Assembly (NCBI GenBank): GCA_022710975.1
Contig: JAKLGA010000003.1
Location: 248,001-312,000 of the forward strand
Origin: Myxococcota bacterium
GTDB lineage: Bacteria; Myxococcota; B64-G9
Length of the DNA stretch: 64,000 nucleotides
Direction: 5' to 3'
Shown here: in pieces, positions 33,101 through 63,510 of the stretch
Layout of the letters: each line of letters begins with the position of its first letter
How positions within the stretch are numbered: position 1 is the first letter of the stretch
The notes under the pieces: generated by a model
Databases searched by the model: none
What the model was told of the DNA's origin: nothing
Seen by the model: the letters and a program-made list of their open reading frames with translations, nothing else
Program-made: the position numbers and the translations under genes

Positions 33101-33476
33101 GGCTCTCGGGGGCGCCCGAGTAGCCGCTGTCGGCGCCCGCCAGGCAGGCGCCCGGCGCGCAGTCGCCGCCCACCACGGGCAGCACGGCCAGGGTCCCGTC
33201 GAAGGACGCGGGGCGCAGCTGTGCGTTCAGCCGGACGCACTCGGTCAGCACCAGGCGGTGGTTGGCCTCGCGGCCGGGCTCGCTGGTCAGGCAGCTGTAG
33301 CTGGCGATCAGGTTCTGGCCGTCGCTGGAGTCGCCGGCCAGGGTCTGCCCGCAGGTGATCGCCACGGGCGACGGGCAGGTCTGGGCCCGGGCGGGGCCGG
33401 CCGCCAGCGCCAGCAGCAGGGGCGCGGCGAGCAGGGCGAGACCCCGGGCCGGGCGGGCGGAGGATCGGTAGTCCAT
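30111..33476 (-). CDS. Large cysteine-rich MopE-type surface protein with MYXO-CTERM-like tail
   Basis: The 1121-residue protein starts at ATG 33476, which is 6 bases after GAGGAG; the ATG at 33482 abuts that site. The signal peptide ends PARAQ. Three beta domains of the pre-peptidase type cover about 35-155, 215-330 and 340-470, with a MopE motif between the first two. A Cys-rich region (about 480-875) has repeats of the type GFxDCxxxxADGCETxLG followed by CxxCGxxC, and Stig1-like units (CVDTQGDLENCGGCGQGC). Four tandem MopE motifs follow (about 880-1080; DADGDG, CGGDDCxD, HPGAAE, CGDGxDQDCSG). The tail GGCACGTQ, hydrophobic stretch and RRRRG resembles a MYXO-CTERM sorting signal. It is a paralogue of the gene at 1-994. 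MopE motifs are reported to bind copper; binding here is inferred. Confidence 0.9.
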   Translation of the reverse strand: MDYRSSARPARGLALLAAPLLLALAAGPARAQTCPSPVAITCGQTLAGDSSDGQNLIASYSCLTSEPGREANHRLVLTECVRLNAQLRPASFDGTLAVLPVVGGDCAPGACLAGADSGYSGAPESLAVDLPPGEYILSVDGYYSWDYGPYELELACTTYPACADGDGDGHPGLDAATCPCGDDCDDADPAIHPGADEICDNGVDDDCGGGDAACPACGAVTAWACGASGTASLLDGTDTVEDYCGTAAGDWYDEEYIASIELTRDTTVLVEVTSDSDVDLFVVESFGRDDVCDPSACAGYAVGSAEPTVAFFAHADQTYFISVEYWTGGYDLFDYTLACLNETCQAGAALACGAAVTGDTTGGTNSLSAYPDIAWGARGPEVVYSLSSLEPTRVTLSLDIDPDGWNPAPDLGLYVVEENLDGLCVSGGLVAFSDRVQDDTQNPAEVVSFTTTPGRMYYVLVDSWRPEVVGSYTLSSSCEIDCPDGEEECSGACVDTQGDLENCGGCGQGCVTPHATPACVAGDCVIQACDAGQADCAGGAADGCETPLGTDADCAGCGDACAALPHAGGSSCDPAGPACLVVCDPGFGDCSAEAGCETDTLSDEGHCGDCLTTCDAGAGEFCWQSGCITDCPDGLTRCDDACIDTSADPLNCGGCGQPCQAPAHTQMGCVDSGCVILGCEPGWEDCAGGPADGCETPLGTPGDCAGCGDDCTGDYPHAVGGCQAGVCVLASCLEGFGDCAGGPADGCETELGGDANCAACGDDCRAVFPNGTGACMAGACTLATCAAGFEDCNEQEADGCETPLGTATDCLGCADACTFAHGEGACAAGGCSLERCLAGWDDCNLAPADGFEADLSSEATCGACERACAGTESCRAGQCESNCRDADGDGYQAANCGGDDCNDYDGLDHPGAAERCTDGRDNDCDGTVDEGCAGCADADGDGAQAQACGGTDCDDADAAIHPGAAETCGDGVDQDCSGADQACGCADADGDGHQDAACGGDDCNDGNPAAHPGAAETCGDGVDQDCSGGDEPCACDADSDGHQALACGGDDCDDQAAGVHPGALESCGDGLDQDCDGQDRPCPGGGGGCACGTQGGPEAPALLGLGLGLGALCFARRRRGD

Positions 33477-33527
33477 GGCCATCTCCTCGTCTGGATTCCC
33501 CGAGACTGGACCGAAGGGGGCGCGGCG

Positions 33528-34835
33528 TCAACGCCCGCGCTGCAGCAGACGGACCAGGGCGTCGTTCTCCTGCGCGCGGGCGAGCTCGAGCGGCGTGGCC
33601 CCGGAGCGCGTGCGGACATCCCTGCGGGCGCCGGCCTGGAGCAGCGCCTCGGCCTCGAGGAAGTTGCCCCGCCAGGCCGCGGTGTGCAGGGCCGTCCAGC
33701 CGTTCGCGTCCGGCGCGTCCGGCCTGGCCCCGGCCCGCAGGAGGCGCACCAGCACGGGCCGGTGGCCGCCCCAGGCCGCGGCGTGCAGCGCGGTGGCCCG
33801 CGCGCCGAGGTCGGGCAGGAACCCGTGCAGCTCGCCGGGCGCCGCGCCCTTGGCGAGCAGCAGCTCGACCGCGCTCTCCTGGCCCTCGGCCGAGGCCTGG
33901 AACAGGGCCGCCGAGCGCAGGAGGGCGTGCCGCAGGCAGGCATGGTCGGAGACCGAGGCCGGCCGGTCCCGGCGCTCCTCCAGCAGCGCGGCGCACCGGC
34001 GGGCCAGCCAGGCCAGCGGGCGCTCGCCCGCGCTGTCCTCCACCAGGGGATCGGCCCCGCGCTCGACCAGCAGGGCGGCCAGGTCCAGATCGCCCTTCTC
34101 CACCGCGCGGTGGAGCGGGGTGCGGCCCTCCGCGTCCCGGCTGGCGAGCGCCTCCGGCCGGTCGGACAGCAGCCGGGCCAGCCAGAAGCCCCCCCGAGCG
34201 ACGGCGGTGTGCAGGGGGTTGGCGCCGTGCTTGTCGCGGGCCAGCGGATCGGCTCCCCGGGCGAGCAGCAGGCCGGCCTCCTCGAGCCGCTCCAGCTCGG
34301 CCGCGCGGTGGAGCGGGGTGCGGCCCTCCGCGTCGGGCGCGCTCGGCCGGGCGCCCGCCTCGAGCAGCCGCTCGATGAGCTTCAGCTTGCCGCGCTCCAC
34401 CGCCGCGTGCAGCGGGGTGCGGCCCAGGTTGTCGGCCAGGTCGGGATCGGCGCCGCCCGCGAGCAGCAGCTCCAGCACGGGCTCCTCGGCGCGCCAGTTG
34501 CGGCCGGAGAAGAAGGCCAGCAGCGCGGTCTCGCCGCGGCCGTCCCGGGCGTTGGGATCGGCGCCGCCCTCCAGGAGCTTCTGCACCTGCCGCGCGTCCC
34601 CGGCCTGGATGGCCTGGGTGAGCAGGCCGGCCGGCGGCACCGCGATCACGCCGCCCGGGCCGCCCTCCTCCGGGGGACCCTCGGCGAAGTCGCGGATCCG
34701 CTCGGCGGGCCGCTCGAGCCGCTCGAAGCGGGTCTCGGCCGGCGGCGGGTCCTGGCAGGCCGGGCCCGCCAGGCAGGCCAGGCAGGCCAGCAGGGCACGG
34801 GCCGGCGGCGGGCGGGCAGGGGTCCGGGGGAGCAT
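33528..34835 (-). CDS. Exported ankyrin-repeat protein
   Basis: A 435-residue protein from ATG 34835, with a signal peptide rich in Ala, Cys and Leu (ALLACLACLAGPAC) that may be lipidated although the lipobox is not canonical. About nine ankyrin repeats follow from residue 70, several textbook: GRTPLHAAVERGKLKLIERL, GRTPLHRAAELERLEEAGLL, GANPLHTAVARGGFWLARLL, GRTPLHRAVEKGDLDLAALL, GWTALHTAAWRGNFLEAEAL. A non-repeat insert lies at about 285-320. Ankyrin stacks bind proteins, so a periplasmic adaptor or immunity-like role is conceivable; nothing in the context decides it. A perfect inverted repeat (34840-34854) lies directly before the start. It is 51 bases upstream of the large MopE-type gene on the same strand. 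Confidence 0.85.
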   Translation of the reverse strand: MLPRTPARPPPARALLACLACLAGPACQDPPPAETRFERLERPAERIRDFAEGPPEEGGPGGVIAVPPAGLLTQAIQAGDARQVQKLLEGGADPNARDGRGETALLAFFSGRNWRAEEPVLELLLAGGADPDLADNLGRTPLHAAVERGKLKLIERLLEAGARPSAPDAEGRTPLHRAAELERLEEAGLLLARGADPLARDKHGANPLHTAVARGGFWLARLLSDRPEALASRDAEGRTPLHRAVEKGDLDLAALLVERGADPLVEDSAGERPLAWLARRCAALLEERRDRPASVSDHACLRHALLRSAALFQASAEGQESAVELLLAKGAAPGELHGFLPDLGARATALHAAAWGGHRPVLVRLLRAGARPDAPDANGWTALHTAAWRGNFLEAEALLQAGARRDVRTRSGATPLELARAQENDALVRLLQRGR

Positions 34836-35027
34836 GCCAGGCCGATCATCGGCCAGAGGGCGCACAGAGGCAAGGGGCCGCGAGCCTGCTCAGGCTCCTG
34901 CCGCGTGCCGAGTGCCCCCGCCGACCGACGACCGCCGACTGCAGCCCGACACGTGCTCGAGAACTGTGAGTTTCGATGCTCGTTCTCCGACACATCCCTT
35001 ACGGTTGCACCTTCGGAGGGGGCGCCC

Positions 35028-45453: not shown

Positions 45454-46170
45454 ATGAACGCGAGATCGCTGCTCTTGCTCTCGGCCCTGGCGCTGGCGCC
45501 GTTCGGCTGCTCGTTCACCTACGTGATCCAGCCCGAGGAGATGGCGCGGGCCACCCGCGAGCTCGTGCGCGGCGGCGAGGCGCGGGTGCGAGCCCGGGCG
45601 AGTGACGGCCGCGAGGTGATCGTCCGGCTCGAGCGCGACGCCCGGATCAATCCCCTGGATGACCAGGGCAGCTACCTCGACGAGAGCGAGCTGCGCCCAG
45701 CCGATCGCACCGGGGTGCCCCGCCGGTCCCCGGCAGCCTACGAGTACACCCACCGAAACCTGGGGGTGCCGCTCCTGGCGGGCGGGCTGGGCCTGCTCGC
45801 CGGAGGCATCGCCATCCAGGGGATCTACGGGTTGGACGAGGCCGGGTACGCCATCCCGCTGGTCGGGCCGGTGCTGGCCATGCAGCACAACTTCACATTC
45901 CAGGAGGAGCCCTGCTCGGACGAGGCCATCTACTGCTTCGATGGACTGGGTGAGGCGGTCCACAGGCTGATGGGGGTCGGCAACCTGCTCACCCTGCTCA
46001 TGCAGGTGGCCGGGATGGGGGTGGCCGTCGGCGGGGCGATCGCCTGGCGGGGTGCGCCCGAGGGGGCGATACCTCCTGGCCTTGCCTCGGCCGACACCTT
46101 GACCTTCACCCTCGAGCCCATCTCCTACGGGGACGGAGGTGGTGGGGGCGCGTTCACCCTGCGGTTCTGA
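45454..46170 (+). CDS. Array lipoprotein 1 (divergent member)
   Basis: A 238-residue exported protein from ATG 45454. The signal peptide ends PFGC, a weak lipobox with Cys19. After it comes the array motif in the form FTYVIQPEEMARATREL, then the polar domain EARVRARASDGREVIVRLE. It has the first hydrophobic segment (LAGGLGLLAGGIAIQGIYG), the central motif AIPLVGPVLAM, two Cys (EEPCSDEAIYC), the second segment (LLTLLMQVAGMGVAVGGAI) and the ending TFTLEPISYGDGG followed by GGGAFTLRF. Members of this array have no family name known to me. It is most similar to members 2 and 3. Its role is unknown; membrane anchorage is inferred from the lipid signal and two hydrophobic helices. Confidence 0.78.
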   Translation: MNARSLLLLSALALAPFGCSFTYVIQPEEMARATRELVRGGEARVRARASDGREVIVRLERDARINPLDDQGSYLDESELRPADRTGVPRRSPAAYEYTHRNLGVPLLAGGLGLLAGGIAIQGIYGLDEAGYAIPLVGPVLAMQHNFTFQEEPCSDEAIYCFDGLGEAVHRLMGVGNLLTLLMQVAGMGVAVGGAIAWRGAPEGAIPPGLASADTLTFTLEPISYGDGGGGGAFTLRF

Positions 46171-46188
46171 ACCGAACCTCCCCGCGGG

Positions 46189-46218
46189 TTGCGGTGGCCG
46201 TGCTCTCCCGGGTACTAT
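46189..46218 (+). promoter_or_regulatory. Promoter of array lipoprotein 2
   Basis: TTGCGG (46189-46194) and TACTAT (46213-46218) are 18 bases apart, 28 bases before ATG 46247. It lies in the only sizeable gap between members 1 and 2. Confidence 0.5.
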
Positions 46219-46246
46219 CTCTCCAGGGGAGCCAGGAGAGGTCGAC

Positions 46247-46930
46247 ATGCGGGCGGTGTTCGGGCGTGGGTGCGTGCTGGCGGTCGTGTGCGCCTGGCTG
46301 GCGTGCTCGGCGGGCTGCGACCGGCGCTACGTGATCTCCGGCGCCGAGGCCCTGCGGGTGAGCGGGGAGCTCTCGGCCCGCGGGGTGGCCGAGGTGCGCG
46401 CCATGGACGAGCAGGCGCGCGAGGTGCACATCCAGGTGCGCGCCTCGGACGACTACACCCTGGAGCGGGATGGCTGGTACCAGGGCTCCATCCTGCCCAC
46501 GGACCGGGAGTCGCTCGGCCAGGTGAGCCAGGTGGTGCTGTACCACGACCAGCCAGGCGACGACATGGTGATGGGCGGCCTGTGGGCCATGCTGCCGGGC
46601 GTGGCGACCTCGATCATCGTGGCCGCGGCCACCGAGGACTGGCGCTTCGGGCTGCCGATCCTGGGCTCGGCCTGGGCCCTGGCCGAGGGCATCGAGCAGG
46701 CCAGCGAGGCCGGCGATGACGGGGGGGACGTCGTGGGGGGCCTGGGCGCGGCCTTCAGCGCCCTGCACCTGGCCGGGCAGCTCGCGGGGCTGGTGCTCAT
46801 CATCTACGGCGGGGTGGTGTGGGGCGAGGGGCGGGAGGTCGAGGGCGAGCCCGGGATCCAGGGCCTCACCTTCGCGCCGATCACCTTCGACCAGGGCGGG
46901 CTGGGTGGGTCGTTCGGTTTCCAGTTCTAG
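46247..46930 (+). CDS. Array lipoprotein 2 (divergent member)
   Basis: A 227-residue protein from ATG 46247 (AGGAGAGG upstream). The signal peptide is followed by Cys20 or Cys24 (SAGC), then RRYVISGAEALRVSGEL and the polar domain AEVRAMDEQAREVHIQVRAS. The first hydrophobic segment reads GGLWAMLPGVATSIIVAAA, the central motif is degenerate (GLPILGSAWAL), and the second segment is LAGQLAGLVLIIYGGVVWG. The end is LTFAPITFDQGGLGGSFGFQF, so the terminal Phe is preserved. It is separated from member 3 by only 10 bases. The central Pro-Leu-x-Gly-Pro-x-Tyr motif is the least well kept of the set. Confidence 0.78.
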   Translation: MRAVFGRGCVLAVVCAWLACSAGCDRRYVISGAEALRVSGELSARGVAEVRAMDEQAREVHIQVRASDDYTLERDGWYQGSILPTDRESLGQVSQVVLYHDQPGDDMVMGGLWAMLPGVATSIIVAAATEDWRFGLPILGSAWALAEGIEQASEAGDDGGDVVGGLGAAFSALHLAGQLAGLVLIIYGGVVWGEGREVEGEPGIQGLTFAPITFDQGGLGGSFGFQF

Positions 46931-46940
46931 GAGAAGGACG

Positions 46941-47522
46941 ATGCGTCTGCCGAGCCTGTGCTGCTCCTTGCTGGTCCTGCTCACGGTCGCGGGCTGCGGG
47001 CCAGAGAGGTACTTCATCCCGGCCCGGGAGGCCCGGCGCGCGGCCGAGGCCCTGCGCGCCGGGGACGAGACCGTGGTGCGCGGGGTGGAGCCCGACGGCC
47101 GCGAGGTGCGCCTGCGGCTCCGGGCCGGGGACTGGTTCACCGTCACCCACCCTGGCTACGAGCACGAGAGCGGCGGGCCGGAGCTGCTGGCCAGGGTCGC
47201 GGACGCGGACCGGGTGGAGGTCGAGCCGGACCTCGCGGGCCACGACCAGGTCTTCCTGGGCCTGGGGATCCTGGGCGGCAGCCTGCTGCGCGGGGTGATC
47301 GCGGCCGCGACCCAGGGCGAGGCCATGTCGTTCGTGCCGTTCGCCGGGCCCATCTTCGAGCTGCAGCGGGGCAGGGGGCAGGAGGAGGGCCTGCCGGACA
47401 ACGGCTTCGTCGCCCTCTCGGCCATCTCCCTCGCGGTGCAGGCCGTGGGGCTGGCCGTGCTGGTCTGGGGTTGCGCGGTCTGGGAGCCCGAGCGCGGGTC
47501 GCCGTTCGCCATCCGCTTCTAG
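46941..47522 (+). CDS. Array lipoprotein 3 (short member)
   Basis: At 193 residues this is the shortest member, from ATG 46941 with AGGAGAAGG upstream. The lipobox is VAGC (Cys19). The array motif reads ERYFIPAREARRAAEALRAG and the polar domain TVVRGVEPDGREVRLRLRAGD. The first hydrophobic segment (LGLGILGGSLLRGVIAAAT) leads to SFVPFAGPIFEL, the second is LSAISLAVQAVGLAVLVWGCAVW, and the protein ends SPFAIRF without the glycine-rich run of its relatives. A strong hairpin right after the stop closes this first sub-cluster of three. Confidence 0.78.
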   Translation: MRLPSLCCSLLVLLTVAGCGPERYFIPAREARRAAEALRAGDETVVRGVEPDGREVRLRLRAGDWFTVTHPGYEHESGGPELLARVADADRVEVEPDLAGHDQVFLGLGILGGSLLRGVIAAATQGEAMSFVPFAGPIFELQRGRGQEEGLPDNGFVALSAISLAVQAVGLAVLVWGCAVWEPERGSPFAIRF

Positions 47523-47531
47523 CGGCGTGCC

Positions 47532-47558
47532 GGCGTGACCGGAAAAACCGGTCACGCC
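47532..47558 (+). terminator. Perfect hairpin after array lipoprotein 3
   Basis: GGCGTGACCGG (47532-47542) and CCGGTCACGCC (47548-47558) form an 11-base-pair stem with an AAAAA loop, starting 9 bases after the stop codon. No U-run follows, so termination would be Rho-assisted or the site may have another role. Confidence 0.55.
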
Positions 47559-47690
47559 CCCGGCCTCGCCCACCTCCGTCCCTGCTCGTCGGTCAGACGA
47601 AGCCGAGCCAATCCAGGGGGTTGTCTCTCACGTCCGGGCTGGCCCACGGGTTGCTTCGCCCCACGCCGAACCAATCACGGGAGGTGCGGG

Positions 47691-48314
47691 ATGACGCGGA
47701 CCGAGGGGTGGGTGGGGCGGCGGGAGCGGGGGCTCGGCTGGATCGGACTGGGGCTGGTCCTGGCCATGTTCTGGGCGGGAGCGGCCTCGGCCACGGGGGC
47801 TGGTGCGGCCAGACCGGAGGCCGGGCGCACCCCGGACGCGGCCGTGTTCTGGGGCCCGGGCTACGTGTTCAGCCTCGTGGCCCCCAGGGGGTTCGTGGTG
47901 GACGAGGCCGCGGGGCGCGAGCACGGCTACGAGGCCTTCGTCGTGCCCGCCGCGCCCGAGGCGCCGGACCTGTTGATCGCCGTGGAGGTGATCCGCCGCG
48001 GGCCCACGGGCGACCCCTCGGCCGCGGAGCTGGCGCGGGAGGAGGTCCACACCTACCGGCTCACGGACCGGGGCGCGGAGCAACGCGAGCCCGCGCCGCT
48101 GGAGACGCGCGATGGCCGCCGGCCGGTCCTCAGCCACCACTACGTGCCGCGCTGGAGGGAGCACCACCTGTCGGCCTACTTCGAGGAGCGCGTGGCGGTG
48201 GTGCGCCTGTTCATGGCCGTGCCGGCCGAGCAGCTCCCGGCCGGGGCGCTCGAGGCCTTCGCCAGCCTGGTGTCCTCCTACCGCTTCGTCACCGACCGGG
48301 TGGCCTTCGAGTGA
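47691..48314 (+). CDS. Exported hypothetical protein inserted in the lipoprotein array
   Basis: The 207-residue protein starts at ATG 47691 after GGGAGG. It has a signal peptide (GLGLVLAMFWAGAASA) but no lipobox and lacks all array motifs. The mature part has GPGYVFSLVAPRGFVVDEAA, ELAREEVHTYRL, RRPVLSHHYVP, LSAYFEERVAVVRLFMAVP and LEAFASLVSSYRFV, a pattern like small secreted alpha/beta proteins of the DUF1795/PsbP-like type that measure the tolerance of a surface value; this comparison is weak. It separates the divergent members (1-3) from the closely related ones (4-7). Confidence 0.75.
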   Translation: MTRTEGWVGRRERGLGWIGLGLVLAMFWAGAASATGAGAARPEAGRTPDAAVFWGPGYVFSLVAPRGFVVDEAAGREHGYEAFVVPAAPEAPDLLIAVEVIRRGPTGDPSAAELAREEVHTYRLTDRGAEQREPAPLETRDGRRPVLSHHYVPRWREHHLSAYFEERVAVVRLFMAVPAEQLPAGALEAFASLVSSYRFVTDRVAFE

Positions 48315-48500
48315 GCGGCCCCCTGTGAGCCATCGGCACGCGCGTCCCGGCCGGCCTCACGGCCCTGGGCGGCGATGTGCTCGCGGTCACACCCCGGAAA
48401 TCCGAAAAACGATGCAGGAACAGGGACGAAGGAGGTCCTGACGGCCTGCGGCATCCTTCCTGCTATCTGCTCGGTCGTGCTTCGAGAGAGGGAGGCTGCC

Positions 48501-49247
48501 ATGTCGAAGACCTGGTCGTTCGCCGGTCTGGTCGCGGTCCTCACGCTCGGTGCCCTCGGCGCGGGCTGCACGACGAAGACCTACACCCTGAAGCCCGAGG
48601 AGGCCCGGCGGGTGGCCGAGGCGCTGCAGAGCCAGGAGGAGGTCGAGGCGGTTGCGGTGGACGAGGAGGACGGGCTGGTCCGCATCCGCCTGACCGCCGG
48701 AGACACGCTTCGGCTCCAGGCGCCAGGTGGCTCGGTGGCATTCGAGGTGCCCGCCGCCCAGGCTGCCCAGGCGCTCCCGCCCGGCGCTTTCCTCAGCGTG
48801 GAGCAGAGCAACGCAGGGAGCGTGCGGCTGGCCTCCGGGCTGCTCATGCTGGCGACGGGCTATGGCCTGAGCTTCCTGGGAGCGGCTCAGACCGGTGACT
48901 GGGTCGGCGTGGTCCCGCTGGCCGGCCCGGTCTACACCATGGCCTCGGGCGCGAGCGGCTCCCTCCTGTGCGGCCTCGGCGAGGACCCCCACAGCCGCTG
49001 CGAGAAGAGCTACGGGACGGTGTTCGCCTCGGTGGCCAGCCTGGCCATGCAGAGCGCGGGCCTGGCCCTGACCATCGCCGGCGCGGTCGAAGGCGGCTGG
49101 GATCGCGAGGTGTACCGCGCCCCCGGGCAGGTGCGGCCAGGGGAGGGCCAGGGCACCGGGGAGGGCGGCCTGGGGGTCACGGTGAGTTTCGAACCGGTGG
49201 TCAGCCCGGACGGGGCCGTGGGCGGCGTGCTGACGGGGCGCTTCTAG
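48501..49247 (+). CDS. Array lipoprotein 4
   Basis: The 248-residue protein starts at ATG 48501 behind AGGGAGG. The lipobox LGAGC gives Cys23. Directly after it stands the array motif TKTYTLKPEEARRVAEAL, then the polar domain VEAVAVDEEDGLVRIRLTAG with DTLRL. A Pro-Gly-Ala turn and SLLMLATGYG-like first hydrophobic segment lead to GVVPLAGPVYTMASG. Two Cys (LLCGLGEDPHSRC) lie in the loop, the second segment is SLAMQSAGLALTIAGAV with WDREVYRAPGQ behind it, and the end is SFEPVVSPDGAVGGVLTGRF. It is the first gene of the tight sub-cluster 4-7, and only 15 bases separate it from member 5. Confidence 0.82.
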   Translation: MSKTWSFAGLVAVLTLGALGAGCTTKTYTLKPEEARRVAEALQSQEEVEAVAVDEEDGLVRIRLTAGDTLRLQAPGGSVAFEVPAAQAAQALPPGAFLSVEQSNAGSVRLASGLLMLATGYGLSFLGAAQTGDWVGVVPLAGPVYTMASGASGSLLCGLGEDPHSRCEKSYGTVFASVASLAMQSAGLALTIAGAVEGGWDREVYRAPGQVRPGEGQGTGEGGLGVTVSFEPVVSPDGAVGGVLTGRF

Positions 49248-49262
49248 CGCGGGAGGTGCGGG

Positions 49263-49958
49263 ATGAGCACCTGGAGGCTTCTGCTGCTTGCCCTGATCGC
49301 GACCCTGGCCCCGGGCTGCACGGCGAAGACCTACACGCTGCTGCCCGGGGAGGCCCGAAGGGCGGCGTCCCAGCTCGCGCGGGGAGAGAGCGCGGTGGTG
49401 GAGGCCCAGGACCGCAAGGGCCGCGCGGTGAGGATCGAGGTGCGGGCGGACGACCAGCTCGAGGCGATCCCCGCGGCCCGGGTGGGGCGCGCGAACAGCA
49501 GCACCTCCGTCGAGGCCAGCCGGCTGGACCTGCTGGACCTCGAGGCCGTGGAGCTCGAGCTCCACCCCCACAATCCCGGCGCGCCCCTCCTGGCCATCGG
49601 CGTGCCGCTCATGCTCGTGGGCTGGGGCGCTGGCGTGGCCGGTGCGGCGGCTGGCGAGCACGGCACCTGGGCCATCCCGATCGCCGGGCCCCTGGTCATG
49701 ATGGCCGACCTACTCGACTGCGACTCGGAGCACGACTCGAACTGCGGGCTGTTCGCCATCTCCTCCGTGCTGGCCTTCTTCGACTTCGCGGTCCAGGCGG
49801 TCGGGACCGGCATGATCCTCGGCGGCGCGCTGCGCTGGGAGGGGAGCCGGGAGATCGAGGTGAAGGGCGCGGACGGGGAGACGGCCTTCTCCTTCACCCT
49901 GGAGCCGGCGGTGATGGGCGAGGGTGGGGCGGGCGGATTCATCACGGGGCGCTTCTAG
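49263..49958 (+). CDS. Array lipoprotein 5
   Basis: A 231-residue protein from ATG 49263 (GGGAGG upstream). The lipobox is APGC (Cys19), the array motif AKTYTLLPGEARRAASQL and the polar domain AVVEAQDRKGRAVRIEVRAD. Segment 1 is LAIGVPLMLVGWGAGVAG, the central motif WAIPIAGPLVMM, loop Cys are in LDCDSEHDSNCG, and segment 2 is FFDFAVQAVGTGMILGGAL. It ends FSFTLEPAVMGEGGAGGFITGRF (terminal Phe kept). It lacks the WDREV stretch shared by members 4, 6 and 7, so it is intermediate between the two sub-clusters. Confidence 0.82.
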   Translation: MSTWRLLLLALIATLAPGCTAKTYTLLPGEARRAASQLARGESAVVEAQDRKGRAVRIEVRADDQLEAIPAARVGRANSSTSVEASRLDLLDLEAVELELHPHNPGAPLLAIGVPLMLVGWGAGVAGAAAGEHGTWAIPIAGPLVMMADLLDCDSEHDSNCGLFAISSVLAFFDFAVQAVGTGMILGGALRWEGSREIEVKGADGETAFSFTLEPAVMGEGGAGGFITGRF

Positions 49959-49979
49959 CGCGGGGAGGAAACCGATGAA
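49944..49979 (+). repeat. Junction repeat between array members 5 and 6
   Basis: A 36-base sequence covers the last codons and stop of member 5, the ribosome-binding site and the start of member 6. It is identical to 50707-50742. The first 21 bases recur after member 4 at 49233-49253. Confidence 0.85.
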
Positions 49980-50721
49980 CGCCAGGAACCTGCTCGCGAT
50001 CGCGCTGGTGCTGTCCGCGGCCCCGGGCTGCGTGACGAAGACCTACACCCTCAAGCCCGAGGAGGTCCGGCGGGTGGCGGAGGAGCTGGGCACCCGGGAC
50101 GAGATCGAGGCCGATGCGCAGGACAAGCATGGCCAGCCCGTCCGCATCCTGGTGAGGAGCGGCGATGGCCTGCGAATCGAGCGCCAAGGTGCTGAGCCCC
50201 GCGAGCTGGATCTGCTGGCAGCCGCCCGGGATCTGCCTCCCGACGCCCGGTTCACCCTGAAGCCGGACAGTCCGGCCCCCAGTCTGTTGATCTGGGGCCT
50301 GTCGACCTTCGCTGCGGGTTGGGGGTTGTCCGTCTACCCGGCCGTTGCCAGCGATGAATGGATGAACAACACCTGGTGCGGTGTGATCCCCCTCGGGGGT
50401 CCACTCTACATCGCCATCATCACCGGAGCCGCATCGAGCATCGATTGGGGTGGCTCGAGCGAGACCCTCCGCTCAGCTCACCATGATCAGGGCTCGACCT
50501 CTGGCGTGATGGCGGCGGCGACACTGTCCTTCCTCCTGCAGGCGGCAGGGCTCGGACTGACCATCGCCGGGGCGGTCGAGGCCAGGGCTGAATGGGACCG
50601 CGAGGTGGGACGAACGGACGGCGAGGGTCTGCGCGAAGAGGGGCCGGGGGTCACGTTGGGCTTCGAGCCGGTGGTGACTCCGGACGGCGCGGTGGGCGGC
50701 TTGTTGACGGGGCGCTTCTAG
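49975..50721 (+). CDS. Array lipoprotein 6
   Basis: The 248-residue protein starts at ATG 49975 (GGGGAGGAAACCG upstream, identical to member 7). The lipobox APGC gives Cys19. It has the array motif TKTYTLKPEEVRRVAEEL, the polar domain IEADAQDKHGQPVRILVRSG and segment 1 LLIWGLSTFAAGWGLSVYP. The central motif CGVIPLGGPLYIAII has its own Cys. The loop is longer and more polar (SETLRSAHHDQGSTSG), segment 2 is TLSFLLQAAGLGLTIAGAV, then EWDREVGRTDG, and the end is GFEPVVTPDGAVGGLLTGRF. The stretch 50260-50520 is less GC-rich than the copies beside it. Confidence 0.82.
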   Translation: MNARNLLAIALVLSAAPGCVTKTYTLKPEEVRRVAEELGTRDEIEADAQDKHGQPVRILVRSGDGLRIERQGAEPRELDLLAAARDLPPDARFTLKPDSPAPSLLIWGLSTFAAGWGLSVYPAVASDEWMNNTWCGVIPLGGPLYIAIITGAASSIDWGGSSETLRSAHHDQGSTSGVMAAATLSFLLQAAGLGLTIAGAVEARAEWDREVGRTDGEGLREEGPGVTLGFEPVVTPDGAVGGLLTGRF

Positions 50722-50742
50722 CGCGGGGAGGAAACCGATGAA
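50707..50742 (+). repeat. Junction repeat between array members 6 and 7
   Basis: This is the second exact copy of the 36-base sequence at 49944-49979. It includes GGGGCGCTTCTAGCGC, in which the stop codon sits in a short palindrome (GCGCTTCTAGCGC). Confidence 0.85.
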
Positions 50743-51490
50743 AGCCAGGAACTTGCTCGGTCTCGCGATCGTGATGGGACTGACGCCAGGCTGCGTGACG
50801 AAGACTTACACCTTGAAGCCCGAGGACTCCCGGCGCGTGGCAGAGGCGCTCGCCTCCGGCGAGGTGGACGAGGTCAAGGCGGTCGCGGTGGACGAGGGGG
50901 GCGAGCCGGTGCAGATCCTGGTGAAGGACGGCGACGATCTCCGTCTGGTGATCGCCGGCGTGGAGGTTGCCGAGGTCGAGGGTGAAGAGGCCGCGCGCAC
51001 CCTGCCGCCAGGCGCCGGGCTGCGGCTCGAGCAGGTGGAGGGCGGGGGAACCATGCTGGTCACTGGCCTGATCCTCTTCACCTCGGGCTGGATTGTCTCG
51101 GGCGTGCCCGGTCTGGTCCTCGGCTCCTGGCCCGAGGCGATCCCGCTCGGCGGGCCGATCTACGGCGGCGTGATGTCCGCGGTCGCCAACGCGTTCTGCG
51201 GTTGGGGCAGCGAGGACGGCGACAGCGACTGCGGCGGCAGCAGCCCCTGGGCGGTTGCCTACGCCCTGAGCTTCCTGATGCAGGCCACGGGCTTGGGGCT
51301 CACCATCGCCGGCGGGGTGATACGAGGCTGGGACCGCGAGGTGTACCGGGCCCCTGGTAGGGAGTGGCCGAAGGAAGAGCGGAAGGAGCGCGAGGACACC
51401 GGGGAGGGCAGCCTGGGGGTCACGCTGGGCTTCGAGCCGGTGGTGACTCCGGACGGCGCGGTGGGCGGGGTGCTGACGGGAAGGTTTTGA
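50738..51490 (+). CDS. Array lipoprotein 7
   Basis: A 250-residue protein from ATG 50738. The lipobox LTPGC gives Cys19; the array motif is TKTYTLKPEDSRRVAEALASG and the polar domain VKAVAVDEGGEPVQILVKDG with DDLRL. Segment 1 is MLVTGLILFTSGWIVSGVPG, the central motif EAIPLGGPIYGGVMS, loop Cys in FCGWG and SDCGG, and segment 2 is ALSFLMQATGLGLTIAGGV followed by WDREVYRAPGREW. It ends GFEPVVTPDGAVGGVLTGRF. It is the closest relative of member 4 in the WDREVYRAPG stretch and of member 6 at both ends, which suggests gene conversion within the array. Confidence 0.82.
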   Translation: MKARNLLGLAIVMGLTPGCVTKTYTLKPEDSRRVAEALASGEVDEVKAVAVDEGGEPVQILVKDGDDLRLVIAGVEVAEVEGEEAARTLPPGAGLRLEQVEGGGTMLVTGLILFTSGWIVSGVPGLVLGSWPEAIPLGGPIYGGVMSAVANAFCGWGSEDGDSDCGGSSPWAVAYALSFLMQATGLGLTIAGGVIRGWDREVYRAPGREWPKEERKEREDTGEGSLGVTLGFEPVVTPDGAVGGVLTGRF

Positions 51491-58011: not shown

Positions 58012-59231
58012 GGCTTCTCCCCCGCGGCGCGCGCCTCGGCCACCAGCTCCTGGTAGGCCGCCCTGAGCGGCTCGGGCGGCTCGCCCGGGAAGCGGGCCTG
58101 CCAGGCCAGCCGCAGCACCTCCTCGGGCGCGAGCTCGCGCAGCGGGCAGCACAGCTCCCGCTGGCAGGCCGGACCCGCGTGGCCCGGGTAGCGGAGCTGG
58201 AGGCGCGCCAGCCTGAAGGGCTTGTCCCCGAGCGCCTCCTCCACCTCCCGGCGGAGCGTCGGGCTGGGCGCGGACAGCTCGACCGCGAGATCGAGCAGCG
58301 GCGGGAGGCCGCCGTCGCCCGGGGGCGCCAGCGTCCGCAGGCGCTCGAGCAGCGCCGCGGGCGGCAGCGCGCCCTCCTCGGGCAGGCGCACGATCTGCCT
58401 GGCGCGCGGCACGGGCAGGGGCTCGATGCCCGCCAGGCGCGGGCCGTCGAGCGTCACCAGCAGCACCTGGTGGCGGTAGGTGCGCTCGTCCAGCGAGAGC
58501 GGCAGCGGCGAGCCCGCGTAGCGCACGTGCTCCACGCCCACGCGCTGGGCCAGGTGCAGGTGGCCGAGCGCCACGTAGGTCGCCGCCGGCAGCGCCTCGG
58601 CCGCGAGCCCCTCCAGCCCGCCCGTCACCAGCCGGCGCTCGCTGGTCTCCGAGGACAGGCCACCCGCCAGGTGGCAGTGGCCCAGCGCGACGAGCGCCTC
58701 GTCCGGGCCGGCCTGGGCCCGGGCCGCCGCGGCCGCCCTGGTGTAGAACGCCCGCACGCAGGCCGAGGCTGGGTCCTCGCCCGGACCCGGCTCCACCCGC
58801 GGCAGGTCGCCCGGCCGCAGGAAGGGCACGGCCAGCACGCGGGCCGCTGGCCGTCCGCCCGCGTCCAGGAGGGGCACCACCATGGCCGCCGGCTCCGCGC
58901 GCGGTCCGCCCACCACCCGCAGGCCGCAGGCCTCGAGCAGCGGACCGGGCGCGTCCAGGCGCGCGGCCGAGTCGTGGTTGCCGGCGATGGCCACGATCTG
59001 CAGCCGGGGCAGGCGCCGGCGGGCCTCGGCCAGGAAGCCGAACCACTGGGCCAGGGCGCGGGCCGGCGGGTTCGAGGCGTCGAACACGTCCCCGCACACG
59101 AGCAGCGCGTCCACCCGGCGCTCCTCCAGGCGGTCGAGCAGCCAGGCCAGGAAGAGGGCGTGCTCCGGGTGCCGATCGAGGTCGTGCAGGCTGTGGCCCA
59201 GGTGCCAGTCCGCGGTGTGCAGCAGGAGCAT
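58008..59231 (-). CDS. sbcD: SbcD, nuclease subunit of the SbcCD complex
   Basis: The 407-residue protein starts at ATG 59231 (MLLLHTADWHLGHSLH). All Mre11-type phosphoesterase motifs are present: DWHLGH (metal Asp/His, residues 8-13), VCGDVFD (about 45-51), IAGNHDS (about 82-88), GHCHLAGG and YVALGHLHLAQ. The C-terminal capping region has RQIVRLPEEGAL-type strands. It cuts DNA with manganese under control of SbcC. There is no Shine-Dalgarno; TAGGCT on the minus strand lies 7 bases before the ATG, so the operon may have a leaderless transcript. The antisense-free upstream gap is 112 bases. Confidence 0.96.
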   Translation of the reverse strand: MLLLHTADWHLGHSLHDLDRHPEHALFLAWLLDRLEERRVDALLVCGDVFDASNPPARALAQWFGFLAEARRRLPRLQIVAIAGNHDSAARLDAPGPLLEACGLRVVGGPRAEPAAMVVPLLDAGGRPAARVLAVPFLRPGDLPRVEPGPGEDPASACVRAFYTRAAAAARAQAGPDEALVALGHCHLAGGLSSETSERRLVTGGLEGLAAEALPAATYVALGHLHLAQRVGVEHVRYAGSPLPLSLDERTYRHQVLLVTLDGPRLAGIEPLPVPRARQIVRLPEEGALPPAALLERLRTLAPPGDGGLPPLLDLAVELSAPSPTLRREVEEALGDKPFRLARLQLRYPGHAGPACQRELCCPLRELAPEEVLRLAWQARFPGEPPEPLRAAYQELVAEARAAGEKP

Positions 59232-59264
59232 GGCCCCGAGCCTACCAAACTTTCCGGGGTTCGG

Positions 59265-59293
59265 TTGCGGATTTTCGCGGGCCGGCTTACAGT
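59265..59293 (+). promoter_or_regulatory. Promoter of the 59344 gene
   Basis: TTGCGG (59265-59270) and TACAGT (59288-59293) are 17 bases apart, 50 bases before ATG 59344. The sequence around it is the most AT-rich of the gap. A closely similar pair precedes the paralogous gene at 63612. Confidence 0.55.
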
Positions 59294-59343
59294 TTCGGGC
59301 GTGTTTCGGGGGGATCCAGGCCTTTGGAACCAGGAGGCTCGTG

Positions 59344-62300
59344 ATGCGGCGCCTTGGACTGTCCGGCAGGTCGCTTCTGGCCCTCGGGGTGCTCTCTCTC
59401 GCGGGACCGGTCGGGGCCCATCCGGTGTCGGTGGATGGCGATCCGGCGGAGTGGACGCTGGCCGCGCCGGCCAACCTCAACACCGGCCACCTCGGGCGGG
59501 ACGGGGCGCTGCAGGGCGAGTACATCTGGCGGGATCGCCTCCTCGACGAGCGCACTGACTTCGCCAGCCCCGACGCGCGGGTGGACATCGAGGTGTTCCG
59601 CGTCAGCGCGGACGCGGTCAACCTCTACTTCCTGATCGAGATGGCGAACATCGACGTCGCCTCAGGGGACGGCGCGCCCCAGGTGCAGATCGCCATCGAC
59701 CGGGATCCGGCCACCGGCGAGGTCTGGCTGGGCGGCACCTGCGACACCCAGGTGGCTCCGACCGCGGCCTGGGAGTTCCTGGTGCAGACCCGCTTCGGGA
59801 GCGGCCAGCAGCCCACGATCTGGACCATCGGCTGGGCCCAGGTGCCCGGCGCCAGCGCGGCCATCTCGGACCCGAACGACGCGATCGAGATCGCGGTGCC
59901 CTGGGCGCTCATCGGCGGCCTGCCCACGGCGCCGATCCGCTTCAGCGTGGCCTCCATGCGCGGCAACGCGAGCGACGAAGCCTGGGACCTGAGCGGCATG
60001 AGCGACGTCCTGGACGCGGTCACCAACTACGACGATCCGGGCTGGCCCCAGAACACCTGGATCGAGGTCCAGGACGGCACGCTCAACTACTTCTTCGAGC
60101 TGTGGTTCCACCTGGATCCCGACTTCGAGCCCTCCCCGCCGTTGGTGGTCAACGAGGTGCTGCCGAACGCCGCGTTCGAGCCGCAAGGAGAGTGGATCGA
60201 GCTCTACAACCGCTCCGGTGCGGCGCTGGACCTCACAGGATTCCGCATTGCAGACGAGGAAACAGTCGACGGAGGCGAGGGTGCTGTGCAGTTCCCTGGT
60301 GGCGTGTCGGTTGCCGCCGTCGATGTGGTCATCGTGGCCGTCAACGCCAATGATTTTCTCACGGTCTATTCATTCCTCCCCGACTTCGAGATCGCAAATT
60401 CGAATATCTTGGTGCCCACCATGACCACCTATGCGGCCTGGGCCGCCGGCTCCGTCAACCTCGGGAACGCCGGCGAGGAGGTGCTGCTCCTCGACCCCCA
60501 CGCCACGGTGATCGACGTGGCCGTCCTGGGCACCGGGGTCTACCCGGGCGTGACCGCGCGCACGCCGGTCCCGCCCGAGCCGCAGAGCATGGAGCGCTTG
60601 CAGAACCGCGAGGACACCGACAACTGCCTCGTCGACTTCATCCAGCAGAACACCCCCACCCCGGGCTTCGTGCTGCTCGAGCTCGGCGAGGCCTGCACCT
60701 TCCCCGCGGCGCTCTGCCAGTCCACCTTCTGCGCGGACGGGTTCTGCTGCGACACCGACTGCAGCGGCCTGTGCGACGACGCCTGCGACCTGCCGGGCAG
60801 CGAGGGCACCTGTGCGCCGCTCGACTGTGACGATTCGAACGTCTGCACCGACGAGATCTGCCTGCCGGCCAGCGGCTGCGAGTACACCGACAACACCGCC
60901 CCCTGCGATGACGGTCTCGCGTGCACCGATTCCGACACCTGCAGCGCAGGGGCTTGCGCGGGCACGCCCAGGGTCTGCGACGATTCGATCGACTGCACGG
61001 ATGACGCCTGTGACCCGGCCGACGGGCTCTGCAAGTCTGTCTCCGACGATGCGAACACCTGCACGGACGGCCTGGTCTGCACCGACGGCGACCACTGCGC
61101 GTCCGGCGCCTGCCTGGCGACCGGGTCGATCGACTGCAGCGACGGCGACGCCTGCACCGTGGACTCCTGCGGGGAGCCGGGCGGCTGCGCGTACACGCCG
61201 GTCGAGTGCGACGACGCGCTCGCCTGCAACGGCCTGGAGACCTGCGATCCGGCCGTGGGCTGCGGGGCCGGGACCCCGCTCGTGTGCGACGACCTGGATG
61301 CCTGCAACGGCGTGGAGACCTGCGATGACGTCGCGGGTTGCCTGCCCGGCGTGGCGCTCGTGTGCGACGACGCGAACGTCTGCAACGGTGCCGAGAGCTG
61401 CGACCCGGCCACGGGCTGCGCGGCCGGCACCCCGCTCGCCTGCGACGACGGCGACGCCTGCAACGGTCTCGAGACCTGCGATGCGGCCGCGGGCTGCGTG
61501 GCCGGCACGCCGCTTGCGTGCGACGACGCGAACGTCTGCAACGGCGCCGAGAGCTGCGATCCGGCCGCAGGCTGCGTGGCCGGCACGCCGCTCGCGTGTG
61601 ACGACGGCACTGCCTGCACGGCGGACAGCTGCGATGCGGCCACGGGCTGCGTGTTCACCGCGGTGGACTGCGACGACGGGGACGCCTGCACCGCGGATGG
61701 CTGCGACGACGCCACGGGCTGCACCCACGCGCCGATCGCGTGCGACGACGGGGACGCCTGCAACGGGGCCGAGAGCTGCGACCCGGGCACGGGCTGCGTC
61801 CCCGGCGCGGCGCTCGTGTGCGACGACCTGGACGCCTGCAGCGCGGACGGCTGCGATCCGGCCACGGGCTGCACCCACGCGCCGGAGATCTGCGACGACG
61901 GCACGGCCTGCACCACGGACAGCTGCGATCCGGCCACGGGCTGCGTGTTCACCGGGGTGGACTGCGACGACGGGAGCCTGTGCACCGCGGACGGCTGCGA
62001 TCCGGCCACGGGCTGCACGCACACGCCGGCCGTCTGCGACGACGGCACGGCCTGCACCACGGACAGCTGCGATCCGGCCACGGGCTGCGTGTTCACCGGG
62101 GTGGACTGCGACGACGGCGATCGGTGCACCGACGATGGCTGCGACGGCGCCCTGGGCTGCACGCACACGGCGGTAGGGTGCGACGACGGGGACGCCTGCA
62201 ACGGCGCCGAGAGCTGCGACCCGGCCACGGGCTGCGTGGCCGGAGAGCCGCTCGTGTGCGACGACGGGGACGCCTGCGACGGCGCGGAGACGTGCGATCC

Positions 62301-63510
62301 CGTGGCCGGCTGCCAGGAAGGGCTGCCGCTCGGCTGCGACGACGGCGCGGCCTGCACGGTCGACACCTGCGATCCGGCCACGGGCTGCGTGTTCACCGCG
62401 GTCGGCTGCGACGACCTGGACGCCTGCACCGCGGACGGGTGCGACGACGCCACGGGCTGCACGCACGCGCCGATTGCCTGCGACGACGGGGACGCCTGCA
62501 CCCTCGACAGCTGCGACTACGTCCTGGGCTGCCTGCATGCGGCCGTGGTGTGCGATGACGGGCAGTTCTGCAACGGCGCCGAGAGCTGCGACGCGGCCAC
62601 GGGTTGCCTGGCGGGCGAGGCCCCGGCCTGCGACGACGGGGTGGGCTGCACGCTGGATGGGTGCGACGAGGACCTCGACGCGTGCGTGTCCACGGCGGAC
62701 GACGCGGCCTGCGAAGACGGCCTGCCCTGCGACGGGGCCGAGCTGTGCGACCCCGCGCTCGACTGCCAGGCGGGCGCGCCGGTGGACTGCAGCGGGCTGG
62801 ACGGGGAGTGCGTGGCCGGGGTGTGCGAGGAGGCCACGGGCGACTGCCTGACCCAGGACCGGGACGACGGCACGGAGTGCACCGACGGCGACGCGTGCAC
62901 CGCGGGCGACGCGTGCACGGCGGGCGCGTGCGCCGGCGCGATCGTGGACGCGGACGGCGACGAGTATGGCCCGGACGCAGCCTGCGGCGGCGACTGCGAC
63001 GACGCGGACGCGAGCGTCCACCCGGGTGCGGCCGAGACCTGTGGGGACGGCCTCGACCAGGACTGCAGCGGGGCGGATCTCGCCTGCGGCTGCGCGGACG
63101 CGGACGGGGATGGGCACCAGGACTCCGCCTGCGGCGGGGACGACTGCGACGACGGTGCCGCGGGTGTTCACCCGGGCGCGCAGGAGACCTGCGGGGACGG
63201 CGTCGACCAGGACTGCAGCGGGGCAGATCTCGCCTGCGGCTGCGCGGACGCGGACGGGGACGGCCACGCGGACGCGGCCTGCGGCGGCACGGACTGCGAC
63301 GACGCGGACACCGACGTGAGCCCGACCGCGGACGAGGTGTGCGGCGACGGGCAGGACAACGACTGCGACGGGCTCGTCGACGCCGCGGACGCAGACTGCG
63401 GCTCGTCCTCCAGCGGGTGCGGCTGCGGCACCCCGGGCTCGCCGGCCGAGGCGGGCCTGCTGGCCCTGGCCCTCGGCCTGGCCGTCCTGCTCCGCCGCCG
63501 CGACGTGTAG
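59344..63510 (+). CDS. Mosaic 1388-residue surface protein: CBM9-like, lamin-tail, CTDC repeats, MopE motifs, MYXO-CTERM-like tail
   Basis: The protein starts at ATG 59344 behind AGGAGG. Signal peptide 1-25. Residues about 26-265 form a DOMON/CBM9-like beta domain (VDGDPAEWTL, GEYIWRDRLLDERTDF, DGAPQVQIAIDRD). Residues about 270-430 are a lamin-tail domain (VVNEVLPNAAFEPQGEWIEL, NRSGAALDLTGFRIAD, VVIVAVNAND). From about 492 to 1190 come some 26 tandem Cys-rich units of 24-26 residues, pattern CDDGDACTxDSCDPATGCVxT or CNGAESCDPATGCVAGTPL, close to the CTDC repeats of Dictyostelium surface proteins. Three MopE motifs (about 1200-1355) follow, with DADGDG, CGGDDCDD, HPGA, DQDCSGAD. The tail GCGCGTPG, Leu/Ala stretch, RRRD is a MYXO-CTERM-like sorting signal. 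Its role is probably adhesion or matrix; this is inferred. Confidence 0.9.
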   Translation: MRRLGLSGRSLLALGVLSLAGPVGAHPVSVDGDPAEWTLAAPANLNTGHLGRDGALQGEYIWRDRLLDERTDFASPDARVDIEVFRVSADAVNLYFLIEMANIDVASGDGAPQVQIAIDRDPATGEVWLGGTCDTQVAPTAAWEFLVQTRFGSGQQPTIWTIGWAQVPGASAAISDPNDAIEIAVPWALIGGLPTAPIRFSVASMRGNASDEAWDLSGMSDVLDAVTNYDDPGWPQNTWIEVQDGTLNYFFELWFHLDPDFEPSPPLVVNEVLPNAAFEPQGEWIELYNRSGAALDLTGFRIADEETVDGGEGAVQFPGGVSVAAVDVVIVAVNANDFLTVYSFLPDFEIANSNILVPTMTTYAAWAAGSVNLGNAGEEVLLLDPHATVIDVAVLGTGVYPGVTARTPVPPEPQSMERLQNREDTDNCLVDFIQQNTPTPGFVLLELGEACTFPAALCQSTFCADGFCCDTDCSGLCDDACDLPGSEGTCAPLDCDDSNVCTDEICLPASGCEYTDNTAPCDDGLACTDSDTCSAGACAGTPRVCDDSIDCTDDACDPADGLCKSVSDDANTCTDGLVCTDGDHCASGACLATGSIDCSDGDACTVDSCGEPGGCAYTPVECDDALACNGLETCDPAVGCGAGTPLVCDDLDACNGVETCDDVAGCLPGVALVCDDANVCNGAESCDPATGCAAGTPLACDDGDACNGLETCDAAAGCVAGTPLACDDANVCNGAESCDPAAGCVAGTPLACDDGTACTADSCDAATGCVFTAVDCDDGDACTADGCDDATGCTHAPIACDDGDACNGAESCDPGTGCVPGAALVCDDLDACSADGCDPATGCTHAPEICDDGTACTTDSCDPATGCVFTGVDCDDGSLCTADGCDPATGCTHTPAVCDDGTACTTDSCDPATGCVFTGVDCDDGDRCTDDGCDGALGCTHTAVGCDDGDACNGAESCDPATGCVAGEPLVCDDGDACDGAETCDPVAGCQEGLPLGCDDGAACTVDTCDPATGCVFTAVGCDDLDACTADGCDDATGCTHAPIACDDGDACTLDSCDYVLGCLHAAVVCDDGQFCNGAESCDAATGCLAGEAPACDDGVGCTLDGCDEDLDACVSTADDAACEDGLPCDGAELCDPALDCQAGAPVDCSGLDGECVAGVCEEATGDCLTQDRDDGTECTDGDACTAGDACTAGACAGAIVDADGDEYGPDAACGGDCDDADASVHPGAAETCGDGLDQDCSGADLACGCADADGDGHQDSACGGDDCDDGAAGVHPGAQETCGDGVDQDCSGADLACGCADADGDGHADAACGGTDCDDADTDVSPTADEVCGDGQDNDCDGLVDAADADCGSSSSGCGCGTPGSPAEAGLLALALGLAVLLRRRDV
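60820..62700 (+). repeat. Tandem CTDC-like coding repeat, about 26 units
   Basis: Units of 72 or 78 bases encode Cys-Asp-Asp-Gly starts. Two alternating unit types (one with CTxDSC, one with CNGAESC) are mixed, suggesting unequal exchange. The repeat lies wholly inside the 59344 gene. Confidence 0.85.
61890..61973 (+). repeat. Exact 84-base duplication inside the CTDC region
   Basis: The sequence recurs unchanged at 62034-62117, offset by 144 bases (two units). It encodes CDDGTACTTDSCDPATG plus the following VFTGVDCDDG. Perfect identity suggests a recent duplication. Confidence 0.85.

Follow-up and report, generated by a model that had tools for sequence, protein, structure and literature searches.

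The stretch of Myxococcota DNA analyzed here (the window; 64,000 nucleotides [nt], 72% GC, from contig C23 of a 7.1-Mb genome) carries seven open reading frames (ORFs), all on the + strand, that encode paralogous lipoproteins, which we designate m1 to m7. Every one of them has a lipobox with its Cys and a purine-rich ribosome-binding-like site. They fall into two runs: the first consists of m1 (45454 to 46170; 238 amino acids [aa]), m2 (46247 to 46930; 227 aa), and m3 (46941 to 47522; 193 aa), with gaps of 76 and 10 nt, and the second of m4 (48501 to 49247; 248 aa), the diverged paralogue m5 (49263 to 49958; 231 aa), m6 (49975 to 50721; 248 aa), and m7 (50738 to 51490; 250 aa), with gaps of 15, 16, and 16 nt. 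Directly after m3 and ahead of m4 lies ORF x (47691 to 48314, +), which encodes a 207-aa secreted protein outside the family, with a signal peptide, no lipobox, and no Pfam match; the next non-family gene after m7 encodes a permease. A first-pass annotation of this DNA had described a single tandem array of seven same-strand lipoprotein genes with a shared order of segments and sizes of 193 to 250 aa. Its coordinates, sizes, and shared order agree with ours, but the run is not uninterrupted, being split by ORF x. Likewise, its statement that members 4 to 7 are close is borne out for m4, m6, and m7 (45 to 53% identity) but not for m5 (32% identity), which stands apart in the tree. Scans for promoters and terminators came up empty, and almost none would be expected at this GC content.

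When the seven proteins are aligned, the N-terminal half shows, in order, a lipobox signal, the Cys, a Y-x-[IL] stretch, a helix, and a polar part; the C-terminal half consists of two hydrophobic segments, the second containing QxxG, with an IPLxGP segment between them, and of a C terminus whose last residue is Phe. Because this alignment runs end to end with 15 invariant columns, and because a profile built from the seven sets m1 to m7, along with two additional copies, apart from the rest of the genome, we regard them as homologues rather than as a chance resemblance. The shortest, m3, is without the linker and the first C-terminal strand and retains the last strand (FAIRF). The two further full-length copies, each single, lie on the same contig (C23:51638-52363, the closest relative of m1, and C23:176211-176855) and were missed by the first-pass annotation. 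An AlphaFold2 model of m4, of moderate confidence and computed from an alignment of the seven sequences only (predicted local distance difference test [pLDDT] 72; predicted template modeling score [pTM] 0.56), has an N-terminal domain at residues 26 to 102, helices at 105 to 131, 141 to 159, and 167 to 198, and a C-terminal beta hairpin at 227 to 247. Two features of this layout had also gone unnoticed in the earlier pass, namely, a Cys pair in the inter-helix loop and the fact that, in the model, the PL[AG]GP segment itself begins a helix.

The distribution of the family was determined by genome searches covering 195 genomes, all from the phylum Myxococcota; these recovered relatives in two genomes, here called G006 and G007, together with matches to the membrane module alone (see below). 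Among eight other genera of the same bacterial family that were examined, G006 has three copies in a row, interrupted by a gene for a metallo-beta-lactamase-fold protein, and G007 has a single copy close to the end of a contig. None of the remaining genomes of the 195 yielded the full architecture, and a pattern search of genome contigs with the close trio m4, m6, and m7 recovered no relative. Copy number thus ranges from 0 to 9 across the genera of a single bacterial family. All 13 members share the lipobox Cys and the terminal Phe, and P139, G142, and G187 are likewise invariant in all 13. A tree of these members places the nine copies of the source genome apart from the G006 trio and the G007 copy and groups the trio together, with 96 to 98% support. 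Because of this partition, the expansions in the source genome and in G006 look separate, although the root of the tree is not known, so that older shared duplications are possible. The view that the family has long been expanding at this locus is in line with the tree, which supports a long-standing local expansion.

None of the window members matches a curated family above the cutoff (best E values, 0.044 in Pfam and 0.069 in NCBIfam; no PHROG), and searches of PDB sequences returned no relative. Within these four collections, the first-pass statement that no described family has this layout holds. The architecture nevertheless does not stand alone, in that its membrane half belongs to a module found across the phylum. 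In m4 this module spans positions 48810 to 49244 (+) and comprises three hydrophobic helices with the IPxxGP and QxxG motifs and a strand ending in GRF. A search of the phylum with the family profile gave partial matches over profile positions ~96 to 225 in proteins of other bacterial families. The N termini of these proteins are exported, unrelated to those of the array, and Pro-rich or furnished with Cys motifs; what they have in common is the end, with a hydrophobic segment, [IV]P[ILVF]xGP, a second hydrophobic segment carrying QxxG, a short linker, and a strand that mostly ends in GRF, GTF, or ARY. A profile free of window proteins recovered m4 at an E value of 9e-10 and the G007 copy at 4e-9, and reciprocal genome searches link the family and the module. 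Profile-profile comparison of the two with hhalign gave a probability of 98.2% (E = 3.6e-14) over 111 columns that include the terminal strand. Because hydrophobic segments can match on composition, reversed and shuffled controls were run, and these gave at most 0.6% when reversed, at most 0.4% when column-shuffled, and at most 20% with a local shuffle that keeps the hydropathy profile. Judged from these profile comparisons, the C-terminal half of the array proteins is a homologue of a phylum-wide, uncurated Myxococcota module.

At a threshold of 1e-4, the module is present in 21 of the 195 genomes, which belong by taxonomic label to eight Myxococcota families, and records labeled Archangium, Minicystis rosea, and Sorangium carry it as well. 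The Archangium record, L103, encodes a protein identical to that in G089, another genome of the phylum. No model in Pfam or NCBIfam covers the module. Its carriers elsewhere (e.g., a metagenome-assembled genome of Archangium, L103, and Minicystis rosea, L106) resemble the array proteins in the three helices, IPxxGP, QxxG, and the terminal strand, usually ending in Phe. They are usually encoded by single genes and begin with an ordinary signal peptide and an N terminus rich in Pro or Cys, whereas the array proteins have a lipobox, a different alpha/beta N-terminal domain, and tandem duplication. Two of the module relatives adjoin envelope transport genes: L107:1795-2508 has an MMPL gene 27 nt downstream, and L109:5001-5681 has a FadL-type channel gene ~170 nt upstream; these are two cases only.

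In contrast to the phylum-wide module, the N-terminal alpha/beta domain (48567 to 48818 [+] in m4, comprising mature residues from Cys23) is lineage specific, with convincing matches in just 3 of the 195 genomes, all of the same bacterial family, and weak ones in four others (E = 0.001 to 0.004). Modeled alone, it is predicted with confidence to form a unit with the arrangement beta-alpha-beta-beta-beta-beta-alpha-beta (pLDDT 85.5). Foldseek searches of the PDB with the whole m4 model and with the N-terminal domain model found no match at an E value of <0.001, and with VIA-align the best Z scores, 7.3 for tetraspan helices and 4.1 for the N-terminal domain, are both inside the stated noise; the domain thus has no clear structural relative in these searches. 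The former score comes from residues 112 to 197 of the m4 model, which align to the claudin/TARP tetraspan protein TARP gamma-2 over 86 residues at 2.5 Å, within the chance range for helical bundles; the tetraspan proteins have four helices and the m4 model three, and no sequence relation is shown. The weak sequence matches to CsrA and CD20 were judged to be probably due to chance or composition; the profile match to CsrA chains, which concerns the N-terminal domain, has an E value of 0.003, and the listed structural matches of the domain model include no CsrA. A 193-aa lipoprotein-like ORF (L035; G074:C136:6907-7374) matches the N-terminal half with an E value of 4e-6 and has a different membrane part, and the domain may for this reason combine differently elsewhere.

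Several properties of the proteins bear on their location in the envelope. An exported N terminus precedes the module both in the array, by virtue of lipobox signals, and in the module relatives, which have signal peptides; the exported N termini of the latter therefore place the N side outside the cytoplasm. In the 13 family members and 18 module proteins, Lys and Arg residues lie before helix 1 and after helix 3, and both loops are poor in them. The family loops are, moreover, strongly acidic, with 2 Lys/Arg versus 25 Asp/Glu residues between helices 1 and 2 and 11 versus 44 in the other loop. The loop before helix 3 contains 18 Cys residues across the 13 members, and the presence of at least two of them in 9 of the 13 (m1, m4, m5, m7, the 51-kb copy, the G007 copy, and the G006 trio) suggests an oxidizing compartment. 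In Myxococcus xanthus lipoproteins, Lys at position +2 marks the inner membrane and Ala at +7 the matrix (PMC3222651); neither is found in any of the 13 members. Taken together, the charges, the Cys pair, the lack of a +2 Lys, and the C-terminal Phe lead us to favor a putative outer-membrane lipoprotein whose helices form a hairpin with an acidic loop pointing outward. In this arrangement, the outer membrane would hold the lipid and the alpha/beta domain on its periplasmic side and would be crossed by a hairpin of helices 1 and 3; the IPxxGP helix would be either short or re-entrant, the loop, probably closed by a disulfide in most members, would be exposed on the outside, and the C-terminal strand would return to the periplasm. 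In a less certain step, the array would supply several co-expressed variants of one envelope or surface component, which diverge while the lipobox, motifs, and C terminus are kept. Taken whole, the reading of a lineage-specific, tandemly duplicating, lipid-anchored envelope family with outer-membrane hairpin topology and co-expressed variants is tentative, and we would stop just short of calling it probable.

A number of observations weigh against this topology. The helices have 19-residue hydropathy means of up to 2.3, and such helices are normally retained in the inner membrane; the m4 model has three helices, which, if all were membrane-spanning, would leave the two ends on opposite sides, and this model itself rests on seven sequences at the moderate confidence given above; the Cys pair is missing in m2, m3, m6, and the 176-kb copy; and the +2 and +7 sorting rules were worked out in a different family of Myxococcota. 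The hydrophobicity of the helices also favors placing the proteins in the inner membrane, with three transmembrane helices, a periplasmic lipid and alpha/beta domain, and a cytoplasmic C-terminal hairpin; there the variants would form a hetero-oligomeric complex or a set of periplasmic sensors. Both a hetero-oligomer and a set of sensors had been raised as possibilities in the first-pass annotation. In the three-helix model, the Cys loop would be periplasmic, as required for a disulfide, and the same-strand clustering with gaps of 10 to 76 nt and 15 to 16 nt suggests co-expression. Yet this arrangement breaks the positive-inside rule, since the acidic loop that joins helices 1 and 2 would be cytoplasmic and the Lys/Arg flank before helix 1 periplasmic; the +2 Lys is absent, and no signaling gene is conserved nearby. 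We therefore consider an inner-membrane location possible but on the unlikely side.

As to what the array proteins might do, the likeliest statement is that they are variants of an envelope lipoprotein, probably one of the outer membrane, and any function ascribed to the set is a guess. The first-pass annotation had suggested looking for conserved neighbors in other genomes, and inspection of the copies in the source genome, the G006 trio, and the module relatives revealed no conserved partner gene near any of them. The neighbors of the array encode LepA and an amino-acid permease, and those in G006 the metallo-beta-lactamase-fold protein and a VIT/VWA protein; such neighbors were rejected as functional evidence, as the genes near the remaining copies and near the module relatives are unrelated (MMPL once, FadL once). 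An origin from a mobile element was likewise rejected, m4 having no match in phages or plasmids. The copies could also be redundant envelope lipoproteins, i.e., drifting duplicates with no function as a set. The variation in copy number noted above (0 to 9) would fit such drift, as would ratios of nonsynonymous to synonymous substitution rates (dN/dS) that are below 1 or close to it and give no sign of positive selection for most pairs (NG86 method; dS is underestimated at this G+C content of third codon positions [GC3]). Against it, every copy is an intact frame whose lipobox, motifs, and C terminus are conserved despite near-saturated divergence, and we hold it to be unlikely.

Within the second run, m6 differs from its neighbors in having ends like those of m4 and m7 and a middle that is diverged and lower in GC3. 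At identical residues, the rate at which the same codon is used is higher in the ends than in the middle for m6 and m4 (0.76 versus 0.39; P = 0.0002), for m6 and m7 (0.71 versus 0.45; P = 0.003), and for m6 and m5 (0.65 versus 0.38; P = 0.012); 21 pairs were tested for such a difference, and only m4/m6 clearly survives multiple-test correction. The 36-nt junction of m5 and m6 (49944 to 49979, +), which takes in the end of m5, the stop codon, a 16-nt spacer with the purine-rich site, and the start of m6, is identical to that of m6 and m7 (50707 to 50742, +). On the plain reading of these sequences, m6 would be a mosaic that arose through an exchange of ends or the import of a middle. Weighing against this reading, the m4/m7 pair shows no difference between ends and middle (0.63 versus 0.60), and the codon usage of m6 may contribute to the signal because its middle has a lower GC3 (0.78 versus 0.91 in m4 and m7). 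Array-wide gene conversion was rejected, as the ends are clearly more alike than the middle only in pairs with m6 and not in m4/m7 and most others. A bolder proposal, which we regard as quite improbable, sees in the array a generator of diversity: its members would be outer-membrane lipoproteins with a helical hairpin exposed at the surface, and recombination through near-identical ends and junctions would swap diverged middles between neighboring copies, changing the cell surface for the recognition of kin, phages, or prey.

The nearest described case in layout among those we found is that of the lpl clusters of Staphylococcus aureus (PMC4470592), which are likewise arrays of paralogous lipoprotein genes on one strand, accompanied by copies dispersed elsewhere, and for which recombination between copies has been proposed as a source of diversity. 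In the lpl genes the core is conserved and the ends vary, the reverse of m6, and they belong to a Gram-positive, host-associated bacterium; no sequence relation was found, as judged from the lack of a Pfam family above the cutoff and not from a direct comparison with lpl. Closer in taxonomy are the SitA lipoproteins of the same phylum (PMC5562445), which, like the array proteins, have a type II signal with a lipobox and are polymorphic and probably located in the outer membrane. In SitA, however, the C-terminal toxin domain varies and a cognate sitI gene lies downstream, features that the array does not have. Myxobacteria deliver such outer-membrane lipoproteins with polymorphic domains by outer-membrane exchange (PMC5562445), and the hydrophobic helices of the array proteins weakly resemble the alpha-pore former AhlB (Z = 5.9), but it is highly improbable that they are SitA-type toxins or helical pore formers delivered in this way, because there is neither an immunity gene, for which the 15- to 16-nt gaps are too small, nor a variable toxin end, the C terminus being conserved across the 13 members, and because the membrane module belongs to a family found across the phylum, usually as single genes.

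The analysis brings out two uncurated protein families, the lineage-specific lipoproteins and the Myxococcota membrane module, of which the module, spread over at least eight families of the phylum and unnamed in every library searched, is the more useful. It would, if true, be unusual for outer-membrane lipoproteins to carry helical membrane modules, and the apparently independent tandem expansions in two genera, together with the putative mosaic m6, offer a test case for the diversification of envelope proteins in Myxococcota.

Repeat-containing proteins were also observed elsewhere in the window and at a related locus. Near the dispersed m1-like copy, L028:10104-11900 (+) encodes a secreted protein made up of many WGSG..DVWAVG..G...HWDG..W repeats. 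In the window, a 1,123-aa protein with five Cu-binding MopE motifs is encoded at 30114 to 33482 (-) and adjoins an ankyrin-repeat protein (33531 to 34865). A large Cys-rich protein (58882 to 63510, +), whose real start probably lies past the first start codon, contains many CDDGxxCxxxxCDPxxGC repeats and MopE-like segments and ends in a GCGCG motif, a hydrophobic stretch, and an RRR tail, resembling a MYXO-CTERM sorting signal.

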